A DNA stretch of 64,000 bases from Lacisediminihabitans changchengi (GTDB lineage Bacteria > Actinomycetota > Actinomycetes > Actinomycetales > Microbacteriaceae): assembly GCF_016634425.1 (NCBI RefSeq), contig NZ_JAEPES010000001.1:999183-1063182 (forward strand), in the 5' to 3' direction. Position 1 is the first letter of the stretch. Every line of letters begins with the position of its first letter. Below, one piece after another: positions 10,441 to 46,540 of this stretch. The translations under genes and the position numbers were made by a program. The notes beneath the pieces are model-generated. The model did no database searches and had not been told where the DNA came from. It saw only the letters and a list, made by a program, of their open reading frames with translations.

Positions 10441-10513
10441 TCGCCGACACGCGTTCTCCGGTCCTCGCGGGCCTTCGCTTCCCACGTCGGTGGCAGGGCT
10501 TAACCTGACCTCA

Positions 10514-11713
10514 ATGAAGATCCTGCACAGCTCCGATTGGCACATCGGGCGAACGTTCCACGGCAACTCGACGATCGCGCATCTCGGCCAGGTGCTCGAG
10601 GCCCTCGTTGACGTCGTGCGCCGAGAGCAGATCGACGTGGTCGTCGTCGCGGGCGACATCTTCGACAGCGCCACCCCCGCGGCCGAGAGCTACGAATTGC
10701 TCACCGCCACTTTGCGTGGCATTCGTGATGCCGGAGCCCAGGTGGTACTCACCAGCGGAAATCACGACTCCGCCACGAGACTCGGATTCAACGCCGGATT
10801 CACCGGGCTGGCGGGCATCCACATCATCACCCGACAGGAACTGCATGACCGACCGATCAGTATCGACGATGAATTCGGTCCGGTGCACTTCTACGGAATC
10901 CCCTACCTCGAACCGTCGATCGTCCGCAGCGCGTATCCCGGTGTCGAGCTTCGCAGCCACGAACAGATGCTCGGCTTCGCGATGGAGAGAGTGCGCGCCG
11001 ACCTCGACCGACGCGGAGGGCGCTCGGTCGTTCTCTCGCACGCGTTCATCGCCGACGTGCCGGCCAGCGTTGGGTTGGAGCGTGACATCACCGCCGGGGG
11101 ATTGGATGTCGTGCCTCTGTCGACCTTCGACGGCCCCGACTACGTGGCACTCGGCCACATCCACGGCCGTGCTCGGCTCAGCGAGCGGGCGCGGTACTCG
11201 GGGGCGCCGCTGCACTATTCGTTCAGCGAGGTCGGCAAGCCCCGCGGTGCCTGGCTGGTGCACCTGGATGCCGACGGACTCGACCACGTGGACTGGGTCG
11301 ACCTGCCCGTTCCGAGAGAGCTCGCCGTGCTCACCGGCGACCTGGACGACCTGGTGATCGATCCGGCTCTGGCCGCCCACGAAGACCAGTGGGTAAGCGC
11401 CGTCCTCACCGACGTCGTGCGTCCGATGGACGCGATGCGCCGCTTGCAGAAGCGCTTCCCGTACGCAGCCCATCTCGAGTTCCGGCCGAGCGTGGTCGCC
11501 GAGACCACGTCGCAGAGCTATGGTCAGCGCATCGCCGCCAAGAGCGATCATGAGATCGTGCAGGGCTTTCTCGAACTGGTTCGCAACGGCGTCGGCGCCA
11601 GCGAGGCGGAGCGGCGCATCATCGATCGTGCGATCGAACAGAGACACGCGCAGGTCGTTGAGACCGGCTCAGTCGATTTCGATGGTGTCGGGGCGCGGGA
11701 GGTCGGGGCGTGA
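10514..11713 (+). CDS. sbcD: Exonuclease SbcCD, subunit D (metallophosphoesterase)
   Basis: 399 residues. The phosphoesterase motifs are in order: LHSSDWHIGR (D-x-H), VAGDIFDSA (GD), LTSGNHDSA (GNHD), VVLSHAFI and YVALGHIHG (GHxH). SbcD is the nuclease half of SbcCD (Mre11-like), which cuts hairpins and DNA ends for repair. I chose MKILHSSDW at 10514, since an earlier Met at 10490 lies outside the family N-terminus. The stop overlaps the GTG of sbcC by 4 bp (GTGA), so the two are translationally coupled. Confidence 0.95.
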   Translation: MKILHSSDWHIGRTFHGNSTIAHLGQVLEALVDVVRREQIDVVVVAGDIFDSATPAAESYELLTATLRGIRDAGAQVVLTSGNHDSATRLGFNAGFTGLAGIHIITRQELHDRPISIDDEFGPVHFYGIPYLEPSIVRSAYPGVELRSHEQMLGFAMERVRADLDRRGGRSVVLSHAFIADVPASVGLERDITAGGLDVVPLSTFDGPDYVALGHIHGRARLSERARYSGAPLHYSFSEVGKPRGAWLVHLDADGLDHVDWVDLPVPRELAVLTGDLDDLVIDPALAAHEDQWVSAVLTDVVRPMDAMRRLQKRFPYAAHLEFRPSVVAETTSQSYGQRIAAKSDHEIVQGFLELVRNGVGASEAERRIIDRAIEQRHAQVVETGSVDFDGVGAREVGA

Positions 11714-14700
11714 AGATCCTCCGTCTGCGTGTGGCTGGATTCGGACCGTTCAAGACCGAGCAGTACATCGACTTCGAGCGGTTCGACGACGACGGCATCT
11801 TCCTCATCACCGGGCGAACGGGCGCGGGCAAGTCCAGCATCCTCGACGCCGTCTGTTTCGCCCTCTATGGGAGTGTGCCGCGCTACGACGGTGCGCAGGC
11901 GAGACTACGAAGCGATCACGCCGAACCCGACGATCCCACTGTCGTCGAGCTGGAATTCCGGGTCGGATCGAACGATTACCGGGTGCGCCGTAGCCCCGAA
12001 TTCGCCCGCCCGAAGCTCCGTGGCACCGGCACCACCTCCTCACCAGCGACGGCGGAGTTGGCGATCAGGGAGGGTGACGACTGGCGCGTCACCGCCGCCC
12101 GCCCGGTGGATGTCGGCAAAGACGTGCTGCGGCTGGTCGGCCTGAGCAAAGACCAGTTCCTCCAGGTGATCCTGCTTGCGCAGAACCGGTTTCAGGAGTT
12201 CCTCGCCGCCGGAAACGACGATCGACAGTCGGTGCTGAGGAGTCTCTTCGGCACCGACCGTTTTCTCGCCTACGAGACATTCCTGGTCGAGCGCCGACGC
12301 GCTCTCGAGCAGCAGGTGGCCGAGTCGTCGGAGGCCGTCTCTCAGCACGCGGCCCAGTTCGCGCGAGCGGTAGAACTGGACCCGAGCGAGGTGCCGTCCG
12401 AGCCGGAGCTGGCCTGGTTCGACGCGCTTCTCGACGAACTCGTCGCCGCGACCGAGCTGGCCGAGTCGAGTGCTGCGGTGGCAGATGCCGCACGGGCCGC
12501 GGCCGAAGACGAGTTCCGGCAGCTCGACACGGTGCATTCCCGGCAACGGCGGCGGGATGTCGCGGCCGCGACCCTGCAGCGCCACCTGTCCGAGTCGGTC
12601 GAGCTCGAGCGCGCTGCCGCGAGCAGCGCTCGGCGTGCGGCCCCCGTGTGGCCGCTGATCGCTGCCCGGCGTGCGGCCGACAACGAACTGATGGCCGCAC
12701 GCGCGCTCGAGCTCGCTGCTCGTTCTGCCTACGCGTCATTCGATCCACCGCCAGTCGACACTGCCACCGCAGCCATCACAGTGCAGGCTGTAGACGAGGC
12801 CATCGACGCGCTCACCCGCAGGCTCGGATCCCTCGAAGCGCCCATCACCGACGAACTGGCGTTGCCCAGCCTCTCCGAGGCGGTCGACATCGGGCGAGCC
12901 GCCCTCTCGGCCATCGACGAGAGCGCTGCCAGGGCTGTCCGGCAGCTCGAGATGCTTCCTGGCCAGCTGATCGAGGCCCAGTCCAGGCTCTCCGACGCAC
13001 GTGTCGCCGCGTCTGCCGAAGGGGCCGCCGCTGCCACCGCCGCGCGGCTCGAGGGGGCACGCGAGGCGGCGCGCGAGAGAGTTCGACTCGAACGCGAGAT
13101 GGCCGCGGCGCAGGCAGCCGAGCTCGTGGCGTCCCAGCGCCTCACCGGAGCGACCACCACGCACCAGTTGCTGATGGACCGCCGATTCGCCGGTCACGCC
13201 GCCGAACTCGCCGGTGCCCTGGTCGACGGCGAGCCCTGCGCCGTGTGCGGCTCCACCGCGCACCCCGAGCCCGCGCCATTGGAGGCGCCGCCCGTGACAT
13301 CGGCGGATATCGAGGAGGCGCGCGCAGAACTCACGGATCGGAGGACTGCTCTGGATGACGCCACCAGAGTCAGCACGCGGCTCGCCGGCCTTCTCGCCGA
13401 GTCGCTCGCGCGCAGCGAGGGTCTGTCGCTGGAGACGATCGAGACACAACTCAGCACCGCGCTCGGCGCGGTTCGGGATGCGCGCCTGGCGGCCGACCTC
13501 ATGGTCGAGCTCGATGACGAGATCGGGCGTCTGGGTTCGCTGATCCAGCAGGCGGAGGCCGAGGTGGAAGGGTTGCAGGCTCGGCGCCATGCCGCGGGCA
13601 CAGACCTCGCGGCCCGCGAACTCGAGCTCACCAGCGCCAAGCGACGAGTTTCCGACCATCGGAACGGCTTCGCGACCGTGTCGGAGCGGGCGTCGGCGTT
13701 GCGTCTTCATCTCGCCGCGGCGAAGACGCTCGAGCGCGCGATCGACACCACGACCGAGAGGCAGCGGGCGCTCGAGTTTGCGACCGAGTCATTGGCCACG
13801 GGCCTCGCCGAGCAGGGGTTCGCCGACGAGACCGAGGCGGAGGATGCGCGTGTGGACTCGGAAGAGATCCGCCGCCTGGAGCGAGTCATCAGCGACCACG
13901 ACCAGTCGATAGCAACTGCCCGCTCGATACTCGCAGAGCCGGAGCTTCGCGGGTTGCCTGAGACCACGGTAGACCTGGAGCCGGCTCGCGCGGCGCTGCT
14001 CGAGGCCGGCGAGCGGCGGGATTCCGCGATGTCCGCCGCCAGCGCCCTGCGCGAGCGCGTGCGCGCAGCCGCCGGGCTGGTCGCTGAGGCGCGGCGGCGG
14101 TTCGCGGCATCCGCTGATCTGCGGGCCGAGTACGGGCAGCTGCGCGAGCTGGCCAATGCGGTGCAGGGCAAGGAGCCGAACACCCGGCGAATGCGCCTCG
14201 AGACCTACGTTCTCGCCGCGCAGTTGGAACAGATCGTGGCGGCGGCGAACGTGCGCCTTCGGGTGATGACCAGCGGACGATACGCACTTGAACACGACGA
14301 CTCCGTGCAGTACCGCAACACGCAGTCGGGACTCGGGCTCTCCATCCTCGACGAACACACCGGAAAATCGCGAGCCACCAATTCGCTCTCCGGGGGCGAG
14401 ACCTTCCTCGCGTCGCTGGCCCTGGCGCTGGGGTTGGCCGAGGTCGTGACGAACCAGGCTGGCGGCATCCGGTTGGACACCCTGTTCATCGACGAGGGTT
14501 TCGGATCATTGGATGCGGAGACGCTCGAGATCGCGATGAGCACCCTCGACGGGCTCCGTGCCGGAGGTCGAACCATCGGTCTGATCAGCCACGTCGACTC
14601 GATGAAGGAGCAGATCCCGGGAAAGCTGGTGGTGAGCATGACGCCCCGCGGCGACAGCACGATCACCATGCCTCAGCGGATCGAGCCTCAGCAGATCGAG

Positions 14701-14733
14701 CGCGTGCCCGGAGAGTTGCCGATTCTGGTCTGA
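11710..14733 (+). CDS. sbcC: Exonuclease SbcCD, subunit C (SMC-like ATPase)
   Basis: 1007 residues, the usual length for this Rad50-like partner of SbcD. Walker A is GRTGAGKS (residues 35-42). Long coiled-coil arms follow, joined at a zinc hook with C510-AV-C513. Then the second arm leads to the ABC signature NSLSGGETF (about 892) and Walker B LDTLFIDEGFGSLD (about 921-935). The start is the GTG that overlaps the sbcD stop; no ATG fits. ATP binding would open or close the SbcD active site on DNA ends. Confidence 0.95.
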   Translation: MKILRLRVAGFGPFKTEQYIDFERFDDDGIFLITGRTGAGKSSILDAVCFALYGSVPRYDGAQARLRSDHAEPDDPTVVELEFRVGSNDYRVRRSPEFARPKLRGTGTTSSPATAELAIREGDDWRVTAARPVDVGKDVLRLVGLSKDQFLQVILLAQNRFQEFLAAGNDDRQSVLRSLFGTDRFLAYETFLVERRRALEQQVAESSEAVSQHAAQFARAVELDPSEVPSEPELAWFDALLDELVAATELAESSAAVADAARAAAEDEFRQLDTVHSRQRRRDVAAATLQRHLSESVELERAAASSARRAAPVWPLIAARRAADNELMAARALELAARSAYASFDPPPVDTATAAITVQAVDEAIDALTRRLGSLEAPITDELALPSLSEAVDIGRAALSAIDESAARAVRQLEMLPGQLIEAQSRLSDARVAASAEGAAAATAARLEGAREAARERVRLEREMAAAQAAELVASQRLTGATTTHQLLMDRRFAGHAAELAGALVDGEPCAVCGSTAHPEPAPLEAPPVTSADIEEARAELTDRRTALDDATRVSTRLAGLLAESLARSEGLSLETIETQLSTALGAVRDARLAADLMVELDDEIGRLGSLIQQAEAEVEGLQARRHAAGTDLAARELELTSAKRRVSDHRNGFATVSERASALRLHLAAAKTLERAIDTTTERQRALEFATESLATGLAEQGFADETEAEDARVDSEEIRRLERVISDHDQSIATARSILAEPELRGLPETTVDLEPARAALLEAGERRDSAMSAASALRERVRAAAGLVAEARRRFAASADLRAEYGQLRELANAVQGKEPNTRRMRLETYVLAAQLEQIVAAANVRLRVMTSGRYALEHDDSVQYRNTQSGLGLSILDEHTGKSRATNSLSGGETFLASLALALGLAEVVTNQAGGIRLDTLFIDEGFGSLDAETLEIAMSTLDGLRAGGRTIGLISHVDSMKEQIPGKLVVSMTPRGDSTITMPQRIEPQQIERVPGELPILV

Positions 14734-14782
14734 GACGCGCCGGTCGACGGCGTGCTGGAGCTGACCCTGCGCCGACGTTCCG

Positions 14783-15037
14783 CTAGCGCGGGTCGACGAA
14801 TCCGCCGGAGTCGCCCGATTCGAGGTCGGGCTCCGAACTCGGGTCGGAGTGATCGAACTCCGAATCTCCGGTCGACGTCGCACCGTCGTCGGTGAGCTCG
14901 TCGTCATCCGTCAGCGGCTCGTCGTCGGGCGGGTCGGGCAATCGCAGGCTGCCCCGGGCTTCCAGATCGGCGATATCGGCCTGGATTTGGGGGCTCGGGT
15001 TCTGCTCGCTGGGTTGCGTGCCGTCGGTGTCGCTCAT
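14783..15037 (-). CDS. Small acidic disordered protein, unknown function (1)
   Basis: 84 residues, starting MSDTDGTQPSEQNPS. After a short helix-like IQADIADLEARGSLRL, the rest is Asp/Glu/Ser/Thr-rich (PDDEPLTDDDELTDDG) and almost without hydrophobic residues. I know no family for it. It lies 14 bp after another acidic gene (15052-15426) on the same strand, and three similar ones are at 19.7-20.4 kb. A weak ribosome site precedes the ATG at 15037. Intrinsic disorder is inferred from composition only. Confidence 0.7.
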   Translation of the reverse strand: MSDTDGTQPSEQNPSPQIQADIADLEARGSLRLPDPPDDEPLTDDDELTDDGATSTGDSEFDHSDPSSEPDLESGDSGGFVDPR

Positions 15038-15051
15038 GTGTGCGCCCGCCG

Positions 15052-15426
15052 CTACAGCAGCGGACCCTCGTTGTCGCTGATCACGTCGGGGACGCTCGGG
15101 TCTATCACGCTCGAATCGGGCTGGTCGACCGCATCGATACTGTCGACCTCGTCAGTGCGCAGGTGCGGCTCGTCGTCGGTCGGTTCGCCGTCCAGGTCGA
15201 GGTCGACGCCTTCGAGGTCGTCTTCACCTGAGTAGGGGCGAACCTCGTTCGGCGACCCGCCGGTGCGACCAGAGTTGCCGTTGCCCACACCCCGACTCAC
15301 CGTCTCGCCCGCAACCGCGTCGTTGACGGCGAGGTCGTTCTCGGCAAGATACTGGGCCTCGCGGTCGTTGTAGTACGGGGCCGCGCCGCCCTCGGTTCCG
15401 CCCTCAGTTCCGGTGCTGTCGCTCAT
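15052..15426 (-). CDS. Small acidic protein, unknown function (2)
   Basis: 124 residues. MSDSTGTEGG, then a short PYYNDREAQYLAENDL segment that may fold, followed by Asp-rich stretches such as DDLEGVDLDLDGEP and a final ISDNEGPLL. The net charge is strongly negative. The start ATG at 15426 follows GAGAGAAGTGAGATCC. It reads into the previous small acidic gene with a 14-bp gap and is likely co-transcribed with it. No recognisable domain; no signal peptide. Confidence 0.7.
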   Translation of the reverse strand: MSDSTGTEGGTEGGAAPYYNDREAQYLAENDLAVNDAVAGETVSRGVGNGNSGRTGGSPNEVRPYSGEDDLEGVDLDLDGEPTDDEPHLRTDEVDSIDAVDQPDSSVIDPSVPDVISDNEGPLL

Positions 15427-15524
15427 GGATCTCACTTCTCTCTCGTCGTGATTCCACTCAAGACCAGTGCTGCCAGCGGTGCAAGGGGCAATTGACGGAT
15501 GCGAAAGTTCTCCGTCGGAAACGA

Positions 15525-16178
15525 TCAGACCGCTTCGCCCGTGGGGTCGAGCGCCGTCGGGTCTTCGAGTTCCGCCCCGCCCATCGGTTCTCCGGCCCAA
15601 TACGTGGTGACCCACCCGTCCTCGGGCGAGCCCTCGACCACGACGACCGCCGTGTTCTCGAGGTCGTGGACGCGACTGAACCCGGCATCCAGATTGCGGG
15701 ATGTCCATGAGGCCCAGGTGCGGATGGCGGCGCCATGACTGAAGATCGCGACGGTTCCGCTGTGGCTGACCGCGATCCGGCCGATGGCGGCGGTGAAGCG
15801 ATCGTAGAACTCGTTGCCGTCTTCGCCACCGGGAATGCGCCCATCGAAGTCCTGCCACCAGGAGAAGATCGTGCCCATGTAGAGGCGCACCGCATCCATA
15901 TCGTTGCGACCCTCGACATCCCCGGCCCGGATCTCCTCGATGCCGTCTATCTCCTGAATCTCGAGCCCTCGGGAGCGAGCGAGCGGCTCGGCAGTGCGCC
16001 GGGTGCGAAGCAAGTGCGAGACGTAGATCGCCTCGATCCGCTCGGACTGCAGTGCGGCGGGTATGGCCGCGGCCTGCCGAGTACCGAGCTCGGTAAGTCC
16101 CGGACCGGGCGCGGCGGTACCGAGCGCGCCGTTCACGTTGTCGATCGTCTGGCCGTGTCGTATCAGGAGGAGTCGCAT
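15525..16178 (-). CDS. Histidine phosphatase family protein (phosphoglycerate mutase-like)
   Basis: 217 residues. MRLLLIRHGQT gives the RHG motif with the phospho-acceptor His8, and VAIFSHGAA gives the second catalytic His148. The ELGTRQAAAIPAAL and SHLLRTRRTAEPL elements fit the family. Substrates range from phosphoglycerate to sugar or cofactor phosphates and cannot be told here. The start ATG is at 16178. It is on the same strand as the acidic genes that follow, with a 98-bp gap. Confidence 0.9.
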   Translation of the reverse strand: MRLLLIRHGQTIDNVNGALGTAAPGPGLTELGTRQAAAIPAALQSERIEAIYVSHLLRTRRTAEPLARSRGLEIQEIDGIEEIRAGDVEGRNDMDAVRLYMGTIFSWWQDFDGRIPGGEDGNEFYDRFTAAIGRIAVSHSGTVAIFSHGAAIRTWASWTSRNLDAGFSRVHDLENTAVVVVEGSPEDGWVTTYWAGEPMGGAELEDPTALDPTGEAV

Positions 16179-16263
16179 CGCACCCAGCCTATTGCCGCCG
16201 TCCGCGCCGGATCATGACTCCGCCAGTACTCGACAGTGCGGTCGTGACGCGACACGTCGATCT

Positions 16264-16776
16264 TTAGGCGGCTGGCAGAGCCTTCTCGATCAGGTCGATA
16301 ATCGCCGGGTCGTCGGGCTCCGTGGTCGGACGGAAGCGGTGCACCTGACCGTCGGGCGTGATGACGAATTTTTCGAAGTTCCACTTCACGCGTCCGGCCT
16401 TGCCGTTCGCATCCGGAGTCTTCTTCAGCTCGGAGTAGAGCGGGTGAGCGTCTCGGCCATTGACCTTGACCTTCTCGAACATCGGAAAGCTGATGCCCCA
16501 CGTGGTCGAGCAGTACTCCGCGATAGCTTCCTCTGTGCTGAGCTCCTGCAAGAACTGGTTGCTCGGAAAGCCGAGAACCGTGAAACCGCGGTCGGCGTAG
16601 AGCTTCTGCATCGCTTCGAGCTTCTCGTACTGCGGCGCGAGCCCGCAGCGCGAGGCGACGTTGACGATGAGTTTCACCTTGCCGTCGTACTCGGCCAGGG
16701 AAGTCTCAGCACCGGTGATGGTGGTGAGGGGGATGCTGTCGAGATTCGCAGCGGAAGACGCGTCGTTGGAAGTCAT
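16264..16776 (-). CDS. Glutathione peroxidase-family peroxidase (thioredoxin-dependent Gpx-like)
   Basis: 170 residues. The catalytic set is complete: C44 in VASRCGLAPQY, Q74 in FPSNQF, and W132-N133 in KWNFEKF. The active site uses Cys, not selenocysteine. In bacteria with no glutathione such enzymes generally take electrons from thioredoxin to remove peroxides; actinobacteria mostly use mycothiol. C89 in IAEYCSTTW may be the resolving Cys. The start ATG at 16776 follows AGAGAGGTTCGCTG. Confidence 0.95.
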   Translation of the reverse strand: MTSNDASSAANLDSIPLTTITGAETSLAEYDGKVKLIVNVASRCGLAPQYEKLEAMQKLYADRGFTVLGFPSNQFLQELSTEEAIAEYCSTTWGISFPMFEKVKVNGRDAHPLYSELKKTPDANGKAGRVKWNFEKFVITPDGQVHRFRPTTEPDDPAIIDLIEKALPAA

Positions 16777-16942
16777 ACATCAGCGAACCTCTCTCGTTTC
16801 CGCCCTATTCCCACTTGTCGCATTTTCGCGAGCGTCGCTTTCCCACGCCGACGGCGAACCTCGACTCGATCTCAGACTTCCTTCGCTATGGTCAAATGCT
16901 GAAGCGTGCGCTTCCCCGATTTCCGCCCCTCCGAAAGCGACC

Positions 16943-17908
16943 ATGCCCGACAGCCCGATCTCGGCAACGCCATACGAGGTGCTGCGCGTCTCGACGACGG
17001 CGAGTACCGAGGAGTTGAAGGCCGCGTATCGTCGCCGCCTGCGCGAAACCCATCCCGACACCGGCGGCGACGCCGTCAGCTTCAGCGCTGTGCAAGCGGC
17101 CTGGGAGCGGATCGGAACTCCGGATGTCCGGGCCGCCTACGACAGAGGCTCGAGATCGCGGGCTTCCGCAGCCCCGCCCGGCGGCTTCGAGCAGCCCGAC
17201 ACGTCAGGTCACGGGTGGGAGCCGCGATCGCGCGCCCACCAGGCAGACACGCGGCCACGCGCTCGCTCTTACGGGCATCCGGGTGGCTGGCGTCGTGAGC
17301 GCTACCTCACCCTGCTGCGCGAGTGGGTGGGCCGCGGCGAGACGATCGACGATCCCTATGATCCAGCGCTGGTGCGCTCGGCCCCACGCGCGCTCCGACA
17401 CCTGCTCGCCGATGCTCTCGCCGAGGAGTCGACCGCACGGACTCTTACCGACCTCGGCATCGGTTTCACGGTCTGGCACGACGTCGATACCGGCTCCGCG
17501 GAACAGAAAATCGACCACGTCGTGCTCGGCCCCACCGGTCTCTACGCAGTGCTGTCCGAGGACTTCGGCGACGTCGTGAGGGTTCGGAAGGGCGAGCTGC
17601 TCGTTCCAGCGGGGCTGGGCGATCGCCCGATGCACGACCTCGGAACTCGCGCCAAAGTGGTCGCCCGCGCGGCGCGGGTCACGTTCAGCGCGCTGCTCAT
17701 CGTCGTCCCCGACGATGAACTCGACGAGTCCCTGCTCGTGCTGGGAGCGATCCGTGGCGCTACGACCGCGGTGGTGACGGCATCGCGGGTGGGCGCAGTG
17801 CTGCGCGAGGGGCTGCCCGGGGCGCGCACCGTCGGTGGGACTGAGCTGTTCGATGTTCGTACCCGGTTGCAGTCCGCGATCAGGTTCGTCGGCGTCGGTG
17901 GAAGCTGA
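16943..17908 (+). CDS. J-domain protein with NERD-like C-terminal domain
   Basis: 321 residues from the ATG at 16943; the longer frame would overlap the peroxidase gene on the other strand. The first ~60 residues are a DnaJ J-domain, TPYEVLRVSTTASTEELKAA then ETHPDTGGD with the HPD motif that stimulates DnaK. A low-complexity linker follows. From about residue 190 the protein has the NERD-like pattern ADALAEESTARTLTDLGIGF and KIDHVVLGPTGLYAVLSEDF. This combination would bring Hsp70 to a nuclease-like module. It is a neighbour of another NERD protein by family only, not by position. Confidence 0.82.
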   Translation: MPDSPISATPYEVLRVSTTASTEELKAAYRRRLRETHPDTGGDAVSFSAVQAAWERIGTPDVRAAYDRGSRSRASAAPPGGFEQPDTSGHGWEPRSRAHQADTRPRARSYGHPGGWRRERYLTLLREWVGRGETIDDPYDPALVRSAPRALRHLLADALAEESTARTLTDLGIGFTVWHDVDTGSAEQKIDHVVLGPTGLYAVLSEDFGDVVRVRKGELLVPAGLGDRPMHDLGTRAKVVARAARVTFSALLIVVPDDELDESLLVLGAIRGATTAVVTASRVGAVLREGLPGARTVGGTELFDVRTRLQSAIRFVGVGGS

Positions 17909-17960
17909 GCCGGCCGAAACTGAGCCGGCGGAACTGACCCCGGGTGAGGGTCGGCGGTCG

Positions 17961-19541
17961 CTAGCTTCCGGTCAGATCCGCGAGCACAGCGGGTAAAGCG
18001 AAGATCAAAACTGCTGCAGCGGCTGCAGCGAGCACCACCCACACCACCAGCGGCGCGAGGGCACGAATGCCCATTCGCACCACCCGGATGGCGAGGTACA
18101 ACGGCGGCACGATCGCATAGGCGACCGGTGCCACACTTGGCTGGCCATCGCGGAGCAGCGTCCAGCGATCGAGTGCGGCGAACACGAGATAAAGAATGAT
18201 CGGGCCGAGCAGCACCGCCCAGCGGAGGACGCTCGCCTGCGTGAGATTGGCGTCGGTGGAATTTACGTTCGCCGGACTCGCCAGGTCGAACACCAGCCAG
18301 GCCAGCGCGAGGTGCAGCACGGGAAGCGCGGCAAACACCCAGACAGCCCAGGTGGCGACGCCGGCGTCGGTACCAGCAGCGTCGGAACGGGCGCTGTCGG
18401 AACGGGCACCGTCGGAACGGGCACCGCGCGCCATCGACGGCCGCCGGGTTTCCATCGGTGTGTAGGTCGGACCATCGCCTAGCGCCAGCGGGAAAGCATC
18501 CTTTGCCGCGGGAGTCGGAGCGGTGGCCCACGCATTCACGGGCCCGAGGGCGGTGACCGGAGAGGCGACCGGCATGGCACCGGTCGGAGTGATTCCGGCG
18601 AAGTCGAACAGCTCATCGCTCCTGGGTGACGACGCGGGTGCTGGTGGAGTGACGGTCGCACCAGCCGGTGTCGGCCCGGTGACGAAGTCGGCCAGGCTCG
18701 GGGCCGCCACGGTCGATCCTGGTAACGGAACGGGGCTTGGCAACGGAATAGCGCCTGGCAATGGGTTAGCGGAGGTGGCCTCGACGTGCTCCGGAGCGGA
18801 ATCGACGGGCAGATCGATCGGCAGATCGATCTGCAGTGGCTCCGGGCTGGGGATTCCGATCGAGCCGATGGCAGAAGACGGCATGACGGTGGCGCTCTCC
18901 TCGGGAGGCGCCACGGCATCCGGTTCTGAGACCTCGCCCAGCGAGTCCACCGCGCGAGCGGCGGACACCGGTTGGGCAAGCAGCTGCTCGTCCTCAACCT
19001 CGACGATGTGGTCGACGGGCTCGGGCTCGATGGGCTCAGGTTCAATAGGCTCAGGCTCAATGGGCTCAGGTTCGAAACGGACAGGCTCGTCTGGCACCGA
19101 CTCGACAGGCACCGACTCGACAGGCGCGACGGTCTCTGCGTTGGCGCGCGCTTCTTCGGCCAGGCGTTCCCGCGCTCGAGCCTCGCGGCGAGTGAGCGGA
19201 GGTGCCTCGGCTGAGCCCGCGGAACCAGCAGAGACCGCAGAGCCAGCAGAGGCCGCCACAACCGGCGACTCAGGCTCGTCCGGCGCGGCACCGGCGGATG
19301 ATCCATCACCGAACCAAGAGGCACTGTGTTCGACCACCGTCGGCTCAGCGCTGGCCGAGGCCGCGATCGCCCCGCGCGGGGCGGGCGCCGACGCCAGCTC
19401 GGCCGGGGGAGCGCCCGTGCGAGCGTCGATGAAGTTGTCGGTCCAGCCGTCGCCATCCCACCAGCGGAGGTAGGGGCTGCCTGCCGGATCCGCGAACCAT
19501 CCCGCGGGCGGCGCCGGGGGCCTGTCGCTGTTGCCTGCCAC
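17961..19541 (-). CDS. DUF2510-domain membrane protein with low-complexity linker
   Basis: 526 residues. Residues ~12-45 carry DUF2510, GWFADPAG and YLRWWDGDGWT. The centre is a Pro/Glu/Ala-rich linker with runs such as EPIEPEPIEPEPIEPEP and repeated SARSDGARSD. The last ~130 residues hold four membrane segments (VWVFAALPVLHLALAWLVF, VLRWAVLLGPIILYLVFA, a third near PVAYAIVPPLYLA and the last one). DUF2510 proteins occur in Actinobacteria without an agreed role. The start ATG is at 19541. Confidence 0.8.
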   Translation of the reverse strand: MAGNSDRPPAPPAGWFADPAGSPYLRWWDGDGWTDNFIDARTGAPPAELASAPAPRGAIAASASAEPTVVEHSASWFGDGSSAGAAPDEPESPVVAASAGSAVSAGSAGSAEAPPLTRREARARERLAEEARANAETVAPVESVPVESVPDEPVRFEPEPIEPEPIEPEPIEPEPVDHIVEVEDEQLLAQPVSAARAVDSLGEVSEPDAVAPPEESATVMPSSAIGSIGIPSPEPLQIDLPIDLPVDSAPEHVEATSANPLPGAIPLPSPVPLPGSTVAAPSLADFVTGPTPAGATVTPPAPASSPRSDELFDFAGITPTGAMPVASPVTALGPVNAWATAPTPAAKDAFPLALGDGPTYTPMETRRPSMARGARSDGARSDSARSDAAGTDAGVATWAVWVFAALPVLHLALAWLVFDLASPANVNSTDANLTQASVLRWAVLLGPIILYLVFAALDRWTLLRDGQPSVAPVAYAIVPPLYLAIRVVRMGIRALAPLVVWVVLAAAAAAVLIFALPAVLADLTGS

Positions 19542-19699
19542 GACTGCGTCCTCACATCAATCCGGGCCGCTCAGGCCTTCGCACGGGTGTTCGCCGCCCG
19601 ACGGGACAGCAATGGCTTGACCCTACTACCGGCGGCTCACCGGGCGGGCGCAACGCTCCGCTAGCGTGTCGCACTCGCTTGCGACCGCTCGAAACGCGG

Positions 19700-19870
19700 T
19701 CAGTCGCCCGTGCTGGGGCCTAGCTCATCCGGTTCTGGAGCGACCGCGGGCGCCGGCGCTGCGGGGTCGTCAGCAAGCACTTGCTCACCTGCCACCTCAT
19801 CGTCGGTATGGGGGTTGCGGGATTCGATGTCCCGCGCGATCGGGTCGCGCCCGTTCGATGAACCACTCAT
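19700..19870 (-). CDS. Small acidic protein, unknown function (3)
   Basis: 56 residues, MSGSSNGRDPIARDIESRNP, then DDEVAGEQVL and a Pro/Ala/Glu tail. The ATG at 19870 is preceded by GAAAGGAACGCG, a good ribosome site; an upstream ATG at 19892 lacks one. It shares its acidic composition and length with its neighbours but not obvious sequence. Below this gene, 19542-19699 holds no clear gene. Confidence 0.62.
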   Translation of the reverse strand: MSGSSNGRDPIARDIESRNPHTDDEVAGEQVLADDPAAPAPAVAPEPDELGPSTGD

Positions 19871-19895
19871 CGCGTTCCTTTCGTCGTGCATAGTT

Positions 19896-20102
19896 TCAGT
19901 CGAGCGATGTGGGCGAGCCGTCGGCCGTTGATCCCGGCGACAACGAGCCGTCGGCCGCGACCGCCGGTGCCGGCGCGGTCTCATCCGCATCCTCGGGCAG
20001 GTTGTCGAGGCTGTCATCGATCGACATCGGCTCGCCGGTCTCTTCGCCGTGGCTGCCGTCGGTGGGTCCCTGGTCGGGCAGCGGGGGGTTGATGTCAGAC
20101 AT
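19896..20102 (-). CDS. Small acidic protein, unknown function (4)
   Basis: 68 residues, beginning MSDINPPLPDQGPTDG, then EETGEPMSIDDSLDNLPED and an Ala/Ser/Gly tail. GAAAGGACCACCT precedes the ATG at 20102 and is nearly identical to the ribosome site of the lipid kinase at 4522. It lies 25 bp before the next acidic gene on the same strand, so the three here are probably one transcript. Confidence 0.65.
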   Translation of the reverse strand: MSDINPPLPDQGPTDGSHGEETGEPMSIDDSLDNLPEDADETAPAPAVAADGSLSPGSTADGSPTSLD

Positions 20103-20176
20103 AGGTGGTCCTTTCGGTGGTGCAGTCGTGTCGAGTAGTTCGTATCGATCTGTTCACATCGAGCTGGGGTGTGCAG

Positions 20177-20389
20177 TCAGGGGAGGGGGGATCCCGCAGG
20201 CGGTTCTCCCTCGGCCCCTCCGCCGTCAGGCAGCTCGTCGAGAATCGACTCTTCTACCGGGTCATCCGCGCTGGCGGGATCGGTGAAGTCGGCATCCTGC
20301 GGAATGCTTCCGTCGCCATACAGCTCCGTTGCGCTCTGAGCTGTTGCGCTCTGATCCTGTGCGCCCTCGGGCGTTTTCTGATCGGACAC
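20177..20389 (-). CDS. Small acidic protein, unknown function (5)
   Basis: 70 residues from the GTG at 20389, which follows GAAGGACCGCA. It begins VSDQKTPEGAQDQSATAQS, then a DGSIPQDADFTDPASADD stretch and a Pro/Glu/Gly tail. Strongly acidic, no hydrophobic core, no known domain. It is the first gene of the 19.7-20.4 kb acidic group. Confidence 0.6.
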   Translation of the reverse strand: MSDQKTPEGAQDQSATAQSATELYGDGSIPQDADFTDPASADDPVEESILDELPDGGGAEGEPPAGSPLP

Positions 20390-20704
20390 TGCGGTCCTTC
20401 CTCGACGACGTAGTTCGGCGTCACACCACGGACGATATTCCCGTTGACCCAACCTGCAACCCCTTGGCGCCGAATGGATGATGGCGGTGCTCCGTCTGAG
20501 CGCGTGCAGAGTCTTGGCTGAGCATCCGAGCAAACGGGCACGTCGCTGTAACGCGCTCGACTCATGGCGAACCTATGCTGAGTGGTCGCGACGATGCACA
20601 CGAGAGACGGTGCACAAGCGACACGGTGCACATGCGAACTGTGCATCATCGGCCTGCATCACTGACGAGCGCCGGCTGCGGCAACATCGACGATTGGTAA
20701 GAGA
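20390..20704. other. Intergenic region with repeated GTGCAC motifs
   Basis: No gene can be supported in these 315 bp. Near 20585-20665 there are several short palindromic half-motifs: GATGCACACG, ACGGTGCACAAG, ACGGTGCACATG and CTGTGCATCA, spaced roughly 15-20 bp. They may be binding sites for a regulator of the divergent acidic-protein transcript or of the phosphatase-like gene at 20705. Evidence is only the repetition. Confidence 0.4.
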
Positions 20705-21418
20705 GTGCTTCGTGTCATCAGTTACAACCTCCGTGAGGACCATGCCAGCGGTGAGCTCACCGCCCTGGTGCGGGGCAACGACCTCGACGTTCTCTGCCTG
20801 CAGGAGGCGGACACAGACAAGTTGCCGGCTGAACTCGGCAATCTGCACATGGCGGACTCCACCAAGCGCAACCGCCTCGGCCTCGCCCTGTATTACAACC
20901 GCGAACGCTTCACCGCCCTCAGCACCCAGACGTTCGCCCTCAAAAAGTCGATGCACGACCGCGTCATGCGTCCGGCCCACGAGCGCCTGATCGGCACGAG
21001 ACTCACCGACCTGCGCGACGACCGCGACCTCATCGTCGCCTCCTTCCACGCTGCTCCGCTCACCGCTCTCAATTCGCTGCGTCGTGAGCAGATCCGCGCC
21101 GCGCACGAACAACTGCGCACCATGGGCGAGGGCATTCCCGAGCTGATGGTGGGGGACTACAACTATCCGCTGTTCCAAAACCGTCTGAACCGCACGGTCA
21201 AGGAGTCGGGCTACGAGCTGTCGCTCAGCGACCGTCGTACCTACACCCGCTACAAGTTCTTCCGCGGGCACTTCGATTTCGCCACCTCGATGGGACTGCG
21301 CATCGACAGCGTCGAGACGCTCAAGCGTGGCGTCTCCGACCACCTGCCGATCCTCATCCGAGCCTCCTGGTTGGATGCCGCCCCGCTCGAGACTCCCGCG
21401 GCCAGTCTTCCGGCCTAA
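20705..21418 (+). CDS. Endonuclease/exonuclease/phosphatase (EEP) family protein
   Basis: 237 residues, starting at GTG 20705 and reading VISYNLREDHASG (the N-terminal EEP Asn), LCLQEADTDK (Glu), MVGDYNYPLF (D-x-N) and VSDHLPILI (D-H). This is the full set of metal-binding and catalytic residues of the EEP superfamily, which cuts phosphodiesters of DNA, lipids or sugars. There is no signal peptide, so it acts in the cytosol. The C-terminus is short and ends just before the riboswitch. Confidence 0.88.
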   Translation: MLRVISYNLREDHASGELTALVRGNDLDVLCLQEADTDKLPAELGNLHMADSTKRNRLGLALYYNRERFTALSTQTFALKKSMHDRVMRPAHERLIGTRLTDLRDDRDLIVASFHAAPLTALNSLRREQIRAAHEQLRTMGEGIPELMVGDYNYPLFQNRLNRTVKESGYELSLSDRRTYTRYKFFRGHFDFATSMGLRIDSVETLKRGVSDHLPILIRASWLDAAPLETPAASLPA

Positions 21419-21480
21419 CCTGCCCGATCGCGACGCCCGGGAGTACTCTCGGACTACAAGTCAATACGCCTTCGAACCGC

Positions 21481-21665
21481 TGCGGGAGAGTTCTTCCACC
21501 CGTGAAGACGCCGTAGGAGCAATCCCCTCCGGGAATCTCTCAGGCCCAAGTACCGCGCGGTGAGGCGACTCTGGAAAGCAGCGCGGCATCCAGTCGTGTT
21601 CACCGTCGGTGCAAGCGCCTCAGTCGAGGATGTCGAAACTCTCAGGTCCGATACAGAGCGGAGGG
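21481..21665 (+). promoter_or_regulatory. Tandem glycine riboswitch (gcvT element)
   Basis: Two aptamers are visible. The first runs from GCGGGAGAG (P1 strand) through GACGCCGTAGGAGCAA and GAATCTCTCAGGC to ACTCTGGAAAGC. The second has CACCGTCGGTGCAAGC, then GAAACTCTCAGG and ACAGAGCGGAGG. These are the conserved glycine-aptamer core elements with the tandem linker between. It lies directly before sdaA. In bacteria such a device normally turns on glycine or serine breakdown when glycine is plentiful. No classical terminator was seen, so control may act on translation. Confidence 0.9.
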
Positions 21666-21711
21666 AACGCATCACGGTGCGCACACCGACCCGCTCGACC
21701 CAAAGGTTTCC

Positions 21712-21738
21712 ATGACTGACATCGCGTTTCATGACTGA
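21712..21738 (+). CDS. Eight-codon leader ORF overlapping the sdaA start
   Basis: AAAGG five bases upstream gives this ATG the better ribosome site. It encodes MTDIAFHD and its TGA (21736-21738) lies within sdaA's second and third codons. The sequence around both ATGs is a near-duplicate, TTTCCATGACTGACATCGCG and TTTCATGACTGACACTGCG. Translation of sdaA may depend on re-initiation after this small ORF. Alternatively it is a remnant of a duplicated start. Confidence 0.5.
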
Positions 21739-23236
21739 CACTGCGCCAAGTGACGTAGGCCCGCGCACCGCTCCGGCTGAGCGTGGATTCCGCCGCACCG
21801 GCCGAGCGTCTGCGACTCGTGACCTCGGCCCCGCTCTTCCACCGCTCAGCGTTTTCGACCTGTTTACTGTCGGCATCGGGCCGTCAAGCTCGCACACCGT
21901 GGGCCCAATGCGCGCGGCCGCCGCATTCGCCGCCGAGCTGTGCGAGCCCGAGGCCTCCGGCGTCGAGCTGATCGATCGCGTGCGGGCCATCCGCGTGCAC
22001 CTCTACGGCTCGCTGGCGGCCACCGGAGCCGGTCACGGCACGATGGACGCCGTGCTGGTCGGACTCGAGGGCTACCTGCCCGACGAGATTCTGCCCGCGG
22101 AGATGACCGAGCGACTCGCGGCGCAGCGGGTGAGCGGCGAAGTGCTGGTCTCGGGGCGTCGGCCGGTGGCGCTTATGGCATCGGACATCCGTTTGCACCC
22201 GCTCACGGTGCTCGACCAGCACACCAACGGGATGGTCTTCGAGGCGTTGGACGCCGACGGCGCTCTGCTGCGCGCAGCCACCTACTTCTCGATCGGTGGC
22301 GGCTTCATCGAGCGCGAGGGGGCCGGGCGGGTCGACGTGTCGAGTGGCCCCGACCCGCTTCCGTTCGCCACGGCGGCCGAGCTGCTCGCCCATTGCAGCG
22401 CAGAGGGTCTGCCGATCAGTGGCGTGATGCTGCGCAACGAGCTCTCTCGGCGGAGCGAACCGGAGGTGATGGCCGGGCTCATGCACATCCGCGACGTGAT
22501 GGAGGAGTGCAAGAACAACAGCCTCGCCCGCAGCGGAAATCTTCCTGGTGGCCTCAACGTGCGTCGTCGCGCCCCTGACTGGCACCGCCGCCTGCTTGCG
22601 GAGGACGTCGACCGCAGCCCGATCTACTGGCAGGAATGGGTGAACCTGGTCGCTCTGGCGGTCAACGAGGAGAACGCCTCGGGTGGGCGAGTGGTGACAG
22701 CGCCCACCAATGGTGCCGCCGGAATCATCCCCGCCGTGCTGTTCTACGCCACGCACTATGCGCCCGGCATGGCCAGCGCCACGGCCGAGGAGAAGGATGC
22801 CGTGGTCGCGCGCTTTCTACTCGCCTCCGCGGCCGTCGGCGTGCTCTACAAGCGCCAGGCCTCCATCTCGGGTGCCGAGGTCGGCTGCCAGGGCGAGGTC
22901 GGCTCGGCTTCGTCGATGGCTGCTGCAGGTCTCGCCGAGATTCTCGGCGGCACCCCGGAGCAGGTCGAGAATGCCGCCGAGATAGCGATGGAGCACAACC
23001 TCGGTCTCACCTGCGATCCCATCGGTGGTCTCGTACAGATTCCGTGCATCGAACGCAATGCGATTGCCGCCGCGAAAGCCATCAACGCCGCCCGCATGGC
23101 GCTCTGGGGCGATGGCGATCACCGGGTGTCGCTTGACGAGGTCATCGTGACGATGCGGGAGACCGGGCGCGACATGAGCTCCAAGTACAAAGAGACCTCG
23201 ATGGGCGGCCTCGCCGTCAACGTGGTGGAGTGCTAG
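21731..23236 (+). CDS. sdaA: L-serine ammonia-lyase (single-chain, iron-sulfur type)
   Basis: 501 residues. An N-terminal beta domain has [20 protein letters not shown], which is the substrate-side SSSHT motif. The C-terminal alpha domain carries the cluster cysteines in [24 protein letters not shown] and [10 protein letters not shown], giving a [4Fe-4S] centre for dehydrating L-serine to pyruvate and ammonia. The first frame start, ATG at 21731, has no clear ribosome site of its own but follows the leader ORF. The glycine riboswitch just upstream links it to glycine/serine balance. Confidence 0.95.
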
Positions 23237-23269
23237 CGAGCCAGAAGTGCTAGTGAGCGAGCAGTACGT

Positions 23270-23887
23270 CTAGCCACCGAAATCGTCCGGCAGCGCGTCC
23301 CGCTTGCCGCTGGCCCGAAGCGCCAGGTTGCGCCTCTCCCAATCCCGAATCGCCTGGCGCTGCGGCTCTATCGCCATCGATTCCCCGCAGTCCACAAGGC
23401 GTTTGCCACAGCTGCAGGTGGCCTTGTCGGTGCTGTGATGGAGGCGGTCGAGCTGCCAGAGCACGGCCATAATGCGGTCGTTGAGACGATTTGCGAGTTC
23501 GGCACGACGCTCGGCCCGGGTCACTACCTCGTTCTCGACCAGAGCGCGGGATCCGCCGAGGTCGGTCGCGGCGAAGTCGTTCGCGATAGCGGTGGTGAGT
23601 TCTGCCACGCGGGCTCGCAGCTCCGTTTCGGTGGCGGCCGCGGACATCCGTTCCGCGTCCGTCGTCTCGGCAAGATCCCTATACCGCTGAGCCAGTTCGC
23701 TGTACCGCGCCGACCACATCGCGAGGTGATCGAGGTCCCGCTTCTCTGCCTTGCCGTCGCCGTAGTGGCGGGAGCATTGCGCGCAGACCAGTTGGTCGTT
23801 CGGCGACGAGAACGTGAAGGGTTGGATCAGGCGGCAGCAGTAGCACTCGACGTCGACGGCGACGTGCAGCGGGTAGGGGTGAGCCAT
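23270..23887 (-). CDS. Cys-rich, coiled-coil hypothetical protein
   Basis: 205 residues. Two Cys pairs near the N-terminus (VECYCCRL, LVCAQCSRH) and a third near residues 155-170 (ATCSCGKRLVDCGES) suggest zinc-ribbon-like structures at both ends. The middle is a heptad-like helical stretch (LAQRYRDLAETTDAERM, ARVAELTTAIAND). I do not recognise the family. There is no signal peptide. It lies alone between sdaA and the surface-protein pair. Confidence 0.65.
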   Translation of the reverse strand: MAHPYPLHVAVDVECYCCRLIQPFTFSSPNDQLVCAQCSRHYGDGKAEKRDLDHLAMWSARYSELAQRYRDLAETTDAERMSAAATETELRARVAELTTAIANDFAATDLGGSRALVENEVVTRAERRAELANRLNDRIMAVLWQLDRLHHSTDKATCSCGKRLVDCGESMAIEPQRQAIRDWERRNLALRASGKRDALPDDFGG

Positions 23888-24028
23888 CGATCTCCTGGGG
23901 GTGGACGCACGAGTGGACCAGTGCGTGGACGGGCGGACAGCTGGTTCAGTGGAGCGTACCGCGGGCGCGCGACTGCGCGAGTCGCGCCGCCGAGGCGAGC
24001 ACGACCCGCGCGGTCGTTCGTCATGCCG

Positions 24029-25210
24029 CTAAGCGCGCAGTGCCCGACGACGAGCGCTGAAGGCGAGGCCGAGGCCCGCGATCACGGCCAGCAGGCCGAC
24101 CAGCACGCCGCCGAGCACACCGTTCGCTCCAGTGAAGGCCAGCGCCGACGGAGAGACGGCCGCCGAGACCGACAGCGCCGCGGTGCCGAGCGAACCGGAC
24201 GGGGACGTCGTCGTGGTCACGGGCGTGGTTCCGGGGTCGGTCGGAGCAACCGGGGTCACTGGCGGGGTCACCGGAGTGACCGGGGTGACGGGCTCGACCG
24301 GCAGGGTCGGTGTGGTCGGGCCATCCGTCGCAGTGTCACCGATGATGCTGATCGCGTTGCCGCTGAGGGTGATCGGCAGGTTCAGACCGAGACCGAGCTG
24401 TGTGCCACCGAGGATGCCGCCGTCACCGAGGGTGGTCGACCCACCGGTGATGGGACCGCCGGTACCGGCAGTCGTGCCGCCGGTCGAGCCGGACGACGAC
24501 GAGTCGCCCAGCACGCTGATCGCATTGCCGGTCACGCCGATCGGAGCGGAGACATTGGGCACGATTTGTGTTCCACCGAGAATCGAGTCGGTTCCGGTGG
24601 TGGTGCTGCCCGTTGCGCCCATTCCAGTTCCGGTGCTGCTGGAGCCGCCCGTGCTGGATCCTGTGCTGCTGGATCCGGTGCTGGACGAGTCGCCCAGCAC
24701 GCTGATCGCGTTACCGGTGATGCCGATCGGCGCGACCGCCGTCGGGAGCACCTGCGTGCCGCCAGCAACACCGTCGTTGCCATTGGTCGTCGCGGGTGCC
24801 GCGGGTGCGGTCGGGGTTGCCGCGGGAGCGGGTGCCACCGATCCCGTGGATGCCGAATCGCCGAGCACGCTAATGGCGTTACCGGTGACCGTCACCGGCA
24901 GCACAGCGTTCACCACTGCCTGGGTGCCGCCGAGCAGCGACTGGGTGCCGCTAGTCGTCGGTACCGCCGGAGCGGGAGCCGCGGGAGCCGGAGCGGGAGC
25001 TACCGAGCCGGTGCTCGCGCTGTTGCCGAGCAGCGAGATCGCGTTGCCGCCGATGGTGATCGGTGCGGTGACGCCGGCGATGGCCTGGGTTCCCGAACCA
25101 ACACCGTCGCTACCGCCGGTCTCGGCGGCGTTGGCCGCGGTTGCGCCGAGGAGCGTGAGGCCCCCGACGAAGAGAGCACCCATGAGGGCTCTAGAGACTA
25201 TTTTGTTCAT
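24029..25210 (-). CDS. Repeat-containing exported protein with LAFTG sortase-type C-terminus
   Basis: 393 residues. Residues 1-29 are a signal peptide (basic start, hydrophobic core, ANA-AE cleavage region). The body has five repeats of about 45-60 residues, each with GGTQ, a beta-like P(I/V)-x3-GNAIS(V/I)(L/I)GDS core and a Ser/Thr/Pro/Gly linker. The core resembles chaplin repeats but lacks the Cys pair. The end is ALAFTGANG, a hydrophobic stretch and SARRRALRA, which fits an LAxTG signal for class E sortase. The protein should be wall-bound. The ATG at 25210 follows GGAGTACTTCAGTC. Confidence 0.85.
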   Translation of the reverse strand: MNKIVSRALMGALFVGGLTLLGATAANAAETGGSDGVGSGTQAIAGVTAPITIGGNAISLLGNSASTGSVAPAPAPAAPAPAVPTTSGTQSLLGGTQAVVNAVLPVTVTGNAISVLGDSASTGSVAPAPAATPTAPAAPATTNGNDGVAGGTQVLPTAVAPIGITGNAISVLGDSSSTGSSSTGSSTGGSSSTGTGMGATGSTTTGTDSILGGTQIVPNVSAPIGVTGNAISVLGDSSSSGSTGGTTAGTGGPITGGSTTLGDGGILGGTQLGLGLNLPITLSGNAISIIGDTATDGPTTPTLPVEPVTPVTPVTPPVTPVAPTDPGTTPVTTTTSPSGSLGTAALSVSAAVSPSALAFTGANGVLGGVLVGLLAVIAGLGLAFSARRRALRA

Positions 25211-44243: not shown

Positions 44244-44687
44244 TCAGCCGATCGACGCGGCGGACACTACCGCTTGGGGCTCGCGTCGTGGGGAGCGACG
44301 GAATCGCCTCCCGGTCACCGAGAGCGGCTGGATTCGAATGTAATTCCACTTGTCGCCGGACAGGTACGACGCCAGTTCCATTACGCCAGAGGATTCGATC
44401 TCCGAGTCGGAGTTGACGCGGTGGGCCGTTCCCCGGATGACCACGCTCCAGCGCTGGCGTGAGTAGATGCCATCCGCTTCGAAGGCCACCGCGGGATCGA
44501 CGCCGAGCGCGGCGAGCTTGTCGCCCGGCGCGCTCCGGAAATACAGGACGCCATCGCCGACCAGGTAATTCAGCGGGACGATATCGGGAGAGCCGTCGCT
44601 CATCAGTGCAAGGCGGCCGAGGTCGGTCGTGCGAAGGAGTGACCAACATTCCTCCGCGTCGAGTTGTGTGGCGTCAGCGGTCTGCAT
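44244..44687 (-). CDS. PPOX-like flavin-binding protein (first of two)
   Basis: 147 residues. EECWSLLRTTDLGRLALMSD and DIVPLNYLVGDGVLYFRSAP, then AVAFEADGIYSRQRWSVVIRG, are the pattern of the pyridoxamine-oxidase-like split-barrel family that binds FMN or related flavins. A similar protein at 49138 is also in this region. The ATG at 44687 overlaps the stop of the stress protein gene by one base, TGATG, so the two are coupled. Its substrate is unknown. Confidence 0.85.
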   Translation of the reverse strand: MQTADATQLDAEECWSLLRTTDLGRLALMSDGSPDIVPLNYLVGDGVLYFRSAPGDKLAALGVDPAVAFEADGIYSRQRWSVVIRGTAHRVNSDSEIESSGVMELASYLSGDKWNYIRIQPLSVTGRRFRRSPRREPQAVVSAASIG

Positions 44688-46461: not shown

Positions 46462-46525
46462 CGGGCGCTCCTTGGCTGTTGGTGAGGCACTCCTGGGAGT
46501 GTGCAAGAGCGGCGGGGACGGAGTG

Positions 46526-46539
46526 AGGACAAAGGTCCC
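46526..46539. promoter_or_regulatory. DosR-like box (first of pair) between USP-B and the kinase gene
   Basis: AGGACAAAGGTCCC is a close version of the palindrome. It lies 64 bp from the USP-B start and 100 bp from the kinase start, so it can serve both directions. Confidence 0.72.
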
Positions 46540-46540
46540 A

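Follow-up and report, generated by a model that had tools for sequence, protein, structure and literature searches.

Small acidic, predicted disordered proteins with short conserved motifs in Lacisediminihabitans changchengi and other Microbacteriaceae: possible adaptors of specific partners

Hydrophilins are delimited by a glycine content above 6%, a grand average of hydropathy (GRAVY) below -1 and a mean hydrophilicity above 1 (PMC4190154, accessible text), and the Acinetobacter genes dtpA and dtpB share a gene cluster for desiccation tolerance with the catalase gene katE (PMC13232832, accessible text). The small phage T7 protein gp5.9, which folds, controls the helicase-nuclease RecBCD via DNA mimicry (PMC9836394, accessible text). 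In Escherichia coli, SSB stimulates RecQ possibly through its acidic C-terminal tail, and a RecQ lacking the tail-binding site is still stimulated by SSB (PMC9917605, accessible text). Here, we describe five small and very acidic open reading frames (ORFs), P1 to P5, in a stretch of 64,000 nucleotides from Lacisediminihabitans changchengi (contig NZ_JAEPES010000001.1, positions 999,183 to 1,063,182 of the forward strand; hereafter the window). The reading that we favour, with a rough probability of 0.45 and thus somewhat short of even odds, is that they encode disordered acidic proteins restricted to the Microbacteriaceae lineage, which may serve as motif-bearing adaptors of specific partners, perhaps in stress.

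The five ORFs all lie on the minus strand, in two tandem gene groups in the order P2, P1 (15426 to 14783) and P5, P4, P3 (20389 to 19700), with spacings of 14 nt between P2 and P1, 74 nt between P5 and P4 and 25 nt between P4 and P3. This confirms the first-pass annotation, which had proposed five small, very acidic ORFs in two groups and had also described MSD or MSG starts and GAAAGGA-type ribosome sites: four proteins start with MSD and P3 with MSG, and the site is GAAAGGA for P3 and P4, GGAAGGA for P5, weaker for P2 and absent for P1. P1 and P4 appear as such in the ORF list; P2, P3 and P5 sit inside longer frames with earlier starts, and their starts come from a gene finder that adds small start and ribosome-site bonuses to a codon score and was trained on the long ORFs of the window and of 54 relatives' loci. 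All five are called as coding, with scores of 8.7-31 and a GC content at third codon positions (GC3) of 0.67-0.85. Of 20 sequences generated from the 64 kb with a third-order Markov model, 19 contained no such ORF and one contained a single one, against three found by the same mechanical scan (first ATG or GTG) of the real window, a number kept low because longer frames conceal P2 and P3. The five look like real genes, as was expected of a retained set, and no family model covers them: scans against Pfam and NCBIfam gave no match to P1-P5.

The proteins have a net charge of -10 to -26, 23-30% aspartate plus glutamate, a pI of 4.05, no cysteine and zero or one lysine each. Glycine makes up 8.3, 12.9, 8.9, 10.3 and 11.4% of P1 to P5, and GRAVY amounts to -1.22, -0.80, -0.85, -0.74 and -0.84 in the same order. 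By charge and hydropathy, each of the five lies on the disordered side of the dividing line, and an AlphaFold2 model of P2 (30 aligned sequences) has a mean predicted local distance difference test (pLDDT) score of 61 with a single short helix at residues 22-30.

P2, P3 and P4 have relatives in which, as judged from sequence comparison, what is conserved is a short motif, about 12-30 residues long. The P2 relatives form a family that was defined in this analysis and is uncurated, the NDAVAGET family, represented by a 30-row alignment with P2 as row 1. Its motif reads TNDAVAGETVxPGxGDGNDGPTGG, within a majority consensus of VTNDAVAGETVLPGxGDGNDGPTGGAPRExEP, and P2 has all of the invariant columns (A39, G40, E41, T42, G53, G56, G57, E61 and P64 in P2 numbering). 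P2 matches the family model with an E value of 2.2e-22, being itself among the model's 30 rows. As a single query it found 32 of 199 family genomes, its own included (31 others), and the 30-row profile found 99 of 398 family genomes, spread over 29 of 85 genera, 3 of the 10 sampled genomes of the window's genus, and only 2 of 296 genomes of a phylum sample, namely the source genome and one weak match. Members among 54 named loci belong to Frigoribacterium, a genus of the Microbacteriaceae, and to Frondihabitans, Agromyces, Herbiconiux, Leifsonia, Amnibacterium, Naasia, Curtobacterium, Planctomonas and Diaminobutyricibacter, which we assign to the same family. The regions flanking the motif are hardly alignable, and the conserved sites are rich in glycine, asparagine and proline rather than forming acidic runs or clusters. 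The family is under purifying selection in two genera: the ratio of nonsynonymous to synonymous substitution rates (dN/dS) is 0.33 overall and 0.25 in the motif, with 0.42 and 0.68 in the flanks, for 13 Frigoribacterium sequences, and 0.22 overall and 0.05 in the motif, with 0.57 and 0.14 in the flanks, for 6 of 8 Curtobacterium loci.

The five proteins were also compared, without gaps, with 75 other acidic ORFs, and the best scores exceeded the 95% points of shuffles (in brackets) for P2 with 179 (62), P3 with 99 (56) and P4 with 88 (64), and stayed below them for P5 with 59 (64) and P1 with 52 (62). In a non-redundant set of 80 small acidic ORFs, the highest ungapped match score apart from the P2 family was 181, against maxima of 61-83 in 30 shuffled sets. 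The five are not clearly alike in sequence, as already suspected, since of their 10 pairs only P3-P4 stands out (p = 0.03), via an APAPA stretch. The relatives of P3 (E values of 1.6e-7 and 1.3e-4) come from two genomes of a single further genus, which with the source makes 3 of 199 genomes, and they stand near further small acidic ORFs on the same strand. P4 as a query matched 28 of 199 genomes, source included, at a loose E value of 0.05; among the 24 loci that were read, some are small acidic ORFs sharing one end of P4, and many look like chance. At an E value of 0.01 and with the source and weak rows included, a profile of the P4 C-terminal end (motif C) matched 15 of 118 family genomes, and one of its N-terminal end (motif A) matched 11 of 118. 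The motifs are paired differently across otherwise different acidic ORFs (loci and genomes bear our working labels): A with C in P4, C with D in L199, and C with E in L206, L198 and L082, E being assigned partly by eye; in L208, A is followed by E (by eye) in one ORF, and D stands in the next.

P5 as a single query gave one weak match, in a region of genome G074 (L213) without a called acidic ORF, which was excluded from the locus count given below. Its comparison with three ORFs chosen by context gave p values of 0.0005, 0.002 and 0.0135, which is weaker evidence because the targets were picked after being seen. At a loose E value of 0.05, P1 matched 12 of 150 genomes, source included; four of these matches (P1 residues 14-47) fall, in four genomes, in one long conserved protein that by its looks we take to be a monomeric isocitrate dehydrogenase, and this likeness is probably due to chance. 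Conservation of the frame in relatives, the check proposed at the outset, is found for P2, P3 and P4, weakly for P5 and not for P1.

Two neighbours recur beside these genes, a RecQ-type helicase for the P2 family and DUF2510 proteins mainly for ORFs of the P3-P5 type. A RecQ-type gene lies upstream, on the same strand and within 3 kb, at 24 of the 54 named P2 loci, and downstream at one more. The pairs occur in Frigoribacterium, Herbiconiux, Amnibacterium, Naasia, Curtobacterium and metagenome-assembled genomes, that is, in at least five named genera; the loci cannot be counted as independent, since several represent different species within a single genus, and the same P2 loci supplied four of the five helicases used as queries. 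In L210, from the window's genus, the P2-type gene is preceded by RecQ, with relatives of the window's DnaJ-NERD (69%) and glutathione peroxidase-type (78%) genes nearby, and in Herbiconiux L086 a RecQ gene, a DUF2510 gene, a P2-type gene and a DnaJ-NERD gene stand together within about 5 kb. Three P2-linked helicases scanned with Pfam match DEAD, Helicase_C and RecQ_Zn_bind (the last under the cut-off in L210), with no RQC or HRDC match at an E value of 0.01. On the RecQ side, the binding site of the SSB tail is the winged-helix part. P2 resembles this tail, as far as the accessible account describes it, in being a presumably disordered peptide connected with a RecQ helicase, and differs from it in being a free-standing protein; the three scanned helicases linked to P2-type genes show neither of those two domains at this E value.

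DUF2510, whose function is unassigned in Pfam, was found in 66 of 100 family genomes searched. In the window, the DUF2510 gene stands between the two acidic groups with histidine phosphatase, glutathione peroxidase-type and DnaJ-NERD genes (Pfam), and the C-terminal part of its 526-aa product looks hydrophobic by eye. A pattern search found DUF2510 in 9 of 1185 called genes at 75 loci, and six-frame reading found more copies, among them in L082 and L203. Counting copies on the same strand and within 1 kb, DUF2510 accompanies 11 of the 101 small acidic genes, compared with 13 among 1075 other genes, genes within a locus not being independent. In genomes G000-G099, 53 acidic places were merged into 43 loci in 35 genomes; at least 7 of the 43 (in G000, G021, G023, G040, G044, G074 and G080) have DUF2510 within 2.5 kb, where uniform placement would lead one to expect 0.26 (P about 1e-8; about 4e-7 once the locus in the window is left out).

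The 34-residue DUF2510 model (pLDDT 93) is a three-stranded sheet, with strands at 6-9, 16-20 and 25-31, and has two invariant tryptophans and a third nearly invariant one. A WW domain is likewise a three-stranded sheet, of about 35 residues, and since motif A has a PPLP core, which we take to be a class II WW ligand, a WW-like reading of DUF2510 is tempting. Unlike a WW domain, DUF2510 has no WW sequence match in Pfam and its model has no fold match in the PDB, a weak test because 34 residues are hard for Foldseek; in a PDB sequence search, DUF2510 gave matches at chance level only and the P2 family none. We regard as improbable the bolder proposal of a modular code, in which each acidic protein of Microbacteriaceae would carry one or two motifs from a limited set, recognised by folded readers: DUF2510, as a bacterial WW-like domain on membrane proteins, would read, for example, the PPLP core of motif A, and NDAVAGET would be a free-standing regulator of RecQ-type helicases without the usual C-terminal domains.

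In the favoured reading, RecQ-type helicases and DUF2510 proteins are the first candidate partners. The acidic chain would hold the protein in solution in an extended form, and docking on a folded partner would be left to the motif; P2-type proteins might modulate the neighbouring helicase or its complex, and P3-P5-type proteins might serve the DUF2510 membrane protein as ligands or as scaffolds, perhaps in stress. We prefer motif-driven partner binding because a short conserved motif in a loosely constrained acidic chain resembles a docking peptide; a bulk protectant or an ion buffer is disfavoured since such roles need composition, not sequence.

Several observations weigh against partner-binding adaptors. 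Seven of the ten sampled genomes of the window's genus, some of them incomplete, are without a P2-family match, and 30 of the 54 named P2 loci, some on short contigs, have no RecQ upstream within 3 kb. In the source genome, the closest RecQ relative (73% to that of L210) is on another contig, C2, with no adjoining acidic ORF called, so that the RecQ-P2 pair is broken there. The uniform placement assumed for DUF2510 disregards kinship and gene clustering, and an inherited gene neighbourhood need not be a functional one. Started from DUF2510, the test gives a weak result: 2 of the 30 best-scoring DUF2510 loci have a called acidic ORF (4 acidic ORFs in about 93 kb, about 0.9 expected), with a gene finder that misses some true acidic genes, such as the P2-type gene of L086. 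Finally, P5 has context-chosen relatives only, and P1 is without a significant relative among the searched family genomes or the 75 acidic ORFs.

The main rival, which we consider unlikely and nevertheless ahead of all others, holds that the five are hydrophilin-like protectants, that is, partner-free, water-binding disordered shields for enzymes under drying, salt or oxidative stress. Like DtpA and DtpB, as these appear in the accessible text, they are hydrophilic, glycine-containing and predicted to be disordered. It is this disorder, the glycine content of 8-13% and some stress-type neighbours that keep weight on the idea; the absence of cysteine agrees with it, and several genes per locus and a patchy presence would suit a dispensable protectant. 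The neighbours in question are DUF326-type, PNPOx and PRC-barrel genes, which we take to be stress-type, and the glutathione peroxidase-type gene of the window. Unlike hydrophilins, however, the five carry charge that is nearly all acidic and conserve a short motif, whose dN/dS of 0.05 is unexpected for a bulk protectant. Furthermore, while all five exceed the glycine limit, GRAVY is below -1 in P1 only and above it in the other four, and the Hopp-Woods means of P1 to P5 (0.73, 0.48, 0.57, 0.42 and 0.47, on a scale that may differ from that of the hydrophilin authors) all stay below 1. The SigB, SigH and extracytoplasmic-function (ECF)-type stress sigma-factor patterns used here were not enriched upstream of 49 acidic genes relative to 678 others. 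The first-pass suggestion of a chaperone-like role is to this extent compatible with disorder and part of the neighbourhood, and at odds with the hydrophilin limits in part.

A nucleic-acid mimic or regulator, whose acidic chain would tune RecQ-type (or SbcCD-type) enzymes by filling the groove in which they bind DNA, had also been suggested and seems improbable to us. The RecQ genes upstream of P2-type genes lend it indirect support, as does the convergence of P1 and P2 on a gene of the window that we name sbcC-like, preceded by SbcD (Pfam). There is precedent in gp5.9, which P2-type proteins recall, going by the accessible account, in their small size and in having a helicase as suspected partner. 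Yet gp5.9 is a folded coiled coil, whereas P2 is chromosomal and has no predicted fold or folded surface, although folding on binding is possible; the conserved motif is without an acid run, the P3-P5 types have other neighbours, and one P2-family protein had no match in phage and plasmid collections. Equally doubtful are fast-turnover orphan genes that drift or hitchhike beside stable neighbours without specific function: the patchy presence, the lack of P1 relatives and the poorly alignable motif flanks speak for them, against which stand the purifying selection seen in Frigoribacterium and Curtobacterium and the spread of family matches over 29 of 85 genera. Buffers of cations, metals or ionic strength, the last role suggested at first, are very improbable: the high acidic charge would suit them, but they fail to explain the motif with its low dN/dS, whose conserved sites are not acidic clusters, and the recurrent neighbours, and the five have no cysteine. 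Untranslated chance ORFs, plentiful as these are in high-GC DNA, can be given hardly any credence in view of the coding scores, the GC3, the shuffles and, for P2, frame conservation in relatives. Taken as a whole, the original interpretation is partly supported; the short motifs that otherwise dissimilar acidic ORFs have in common, and the recurring neighbour genes, were not part of it.

Parts of both window neighbourhoods recur elsewhere (Table 1). In a Pfam comparison of 121 near with 121 far genes, the near ones included RecQ_Zn_bind and DUF2510 five times each and DUF326 and PNPOx three times each; neither RecQ_Zn_bind nor DUF2510 was among the top 25 far families listed, where the lowest count was 2, so that one or two far copies of each are possible. 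DUF326-type and PRC-barrel genes stand near the acidic clusters of L082 and L198, and a relative (54-57% identity) of the window's Exo_endo_phos gene adjoins a motif-A gene in genus g46. The best upstream 6-mer, GGCGTA, precedes 11 of 49 acidic genes and 29 of 678 others (p = 2e-5 before correction for 2325 6-mers), TANNNT lies 5-9 nt before the start in 18 of 101 and 126 of 1065 (p = 0.06), and no sigma-70-type promoter was found in 14700-20800.

Table 1. Positions of the acidic ORFs, their motifs and neighbouring genes in the window.
Feature	Position	Strand	Remarks
P1	14783..15037	-	84 aa, net charge -22; 14 nt downstream of P2; no relative found
P2	15052..15426	-	124 aa; NDAVAGET family member
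P2 conserved motif NDAVAGETV...P	15235..15324	-	residues 35-64; invariant and near-invariant columns; dN/dS from relatives
P3	19700..19870	-	56 aa; relatives in one other genus (g75)
P3 conserved stretch DPIARDIESRNP..VAGEQVL	19775..19846	-	
P4	19896..20102	-	68 aa; motif A near N terminus, motif C at C terminus
P4 motif A NPPLPDQGPTDGSHG	20046..20090	-	
P4 motif C DGSLSPGSTADGSPTS	19905..19952	-	
P5	20177..20389	-	70 aa; GTG start, GGAAGGA site
P5 motif D DGSIPQDADF	20285..20314	-	only two context-chosen ORFs compared; p 0.002 and 0.0135
P5 stretch DDPVEESILDELPDG	20222..20266	-	resembles L198 5909-6121; p 0.0005, against one context-chosen ORF
DUF2510 protein	17961..19541	-	526 aa; downstream of P3, same strand; Pfam PF10708, E 3.1e-9
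DUF2510 domain	19416..19517	-	AlphaFold2 pLDDT 93, three strands
DnaJ-NERD gene	16943..17908	+	NERD just under cut-off here; also a neighbour in L210 (same genus) and Herbiconiux L086
Glutathione peroxidase-type gene	16264..16776	-	also a neighbour in L210
Exo_endo_phos gene	20705..21418	+	relative adjoins motif-A gene in genus g46

The source genome comprises 3.41 Mb in six contigs, with a contamination of 11.6%. Window positions 10077-24077 recur at 100% identity over the 14 kb compared as positions 311000-325000 of contig C3 of the same assembly (G000), the window itself being on C1, and given this identity and the contamination the second copy looks like an assembly duplicate. Elsewhere in the window, two long ORFs about 32 kb apart (1092-2447 and 33588-34976) are near-identical over their first 70 residues (MENSPATLLADLSEVCADGF...), and universal-stress-like and pyridoxamine-oxidase-like genes follow one another at 44244-54787, together with what may be a two-component pair, all named by eye.

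Other acidic or motif-bearing ORFs came to light in the relatives. In L138 and L145 (also L194 and L195), a motif-A-like peptide, PPLPDxGPRDGRHGVD or a variant, stands at both ends of a protein that has a sub-threshold Phd/YefM-type match between the peptides, and the next ORF is acylphosphatase-like by eye; Pfam and NCBIfam scans of ten relatives gave nothing but sub-threshold Phd-type matches in one motif-A relative. Tiny acidic ORFs of Naasia (L098 1203-1328, L103 1989-2117, L110 338-445 and L115 2481-2591) have KPSQAEG or a close variant near both ends. Another common acidic peptide family (MDREYEPNLDDEREEEL...) is found in two genera, at L082 10180-10338 and L198 6130-6285, where the surrounding genes include DUF326-type, SDR-like and PRC-barrel ones. 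In L205 (3666-6110), an encapsulin gene and a ferritin-like ORF ending in SLGIGSLRSDED have an acidic ORF with motif C nearby on the same strand. Motif C is slightly like a cargo-loading peptide, and encapsulin cargo was considered; the ferritin-like gene carries near its end SLGIGSLR, which we take to be such a peptide, and the idea was set aside because motif C is without those hydrophobic residues.

A search of the published literature, with most subscription journals outside its reach, brought up no work dealing with DUF2510 or with the present set of proteins, and nothing on Microbacteriaceae 'signature proteins' was judged relevant. Small acidic disordered proteins are easily lost in annotation or written off as low complexity. 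The present set is recognisable by short conserved motifs, one of which is under very strong purifying selection in Curtobacterium. With a RecQ-type helicase and DUF2510 proteins as concrete suspected partners, its function becomes directly testable, and DUF2510 would gain a first candidate ligand.

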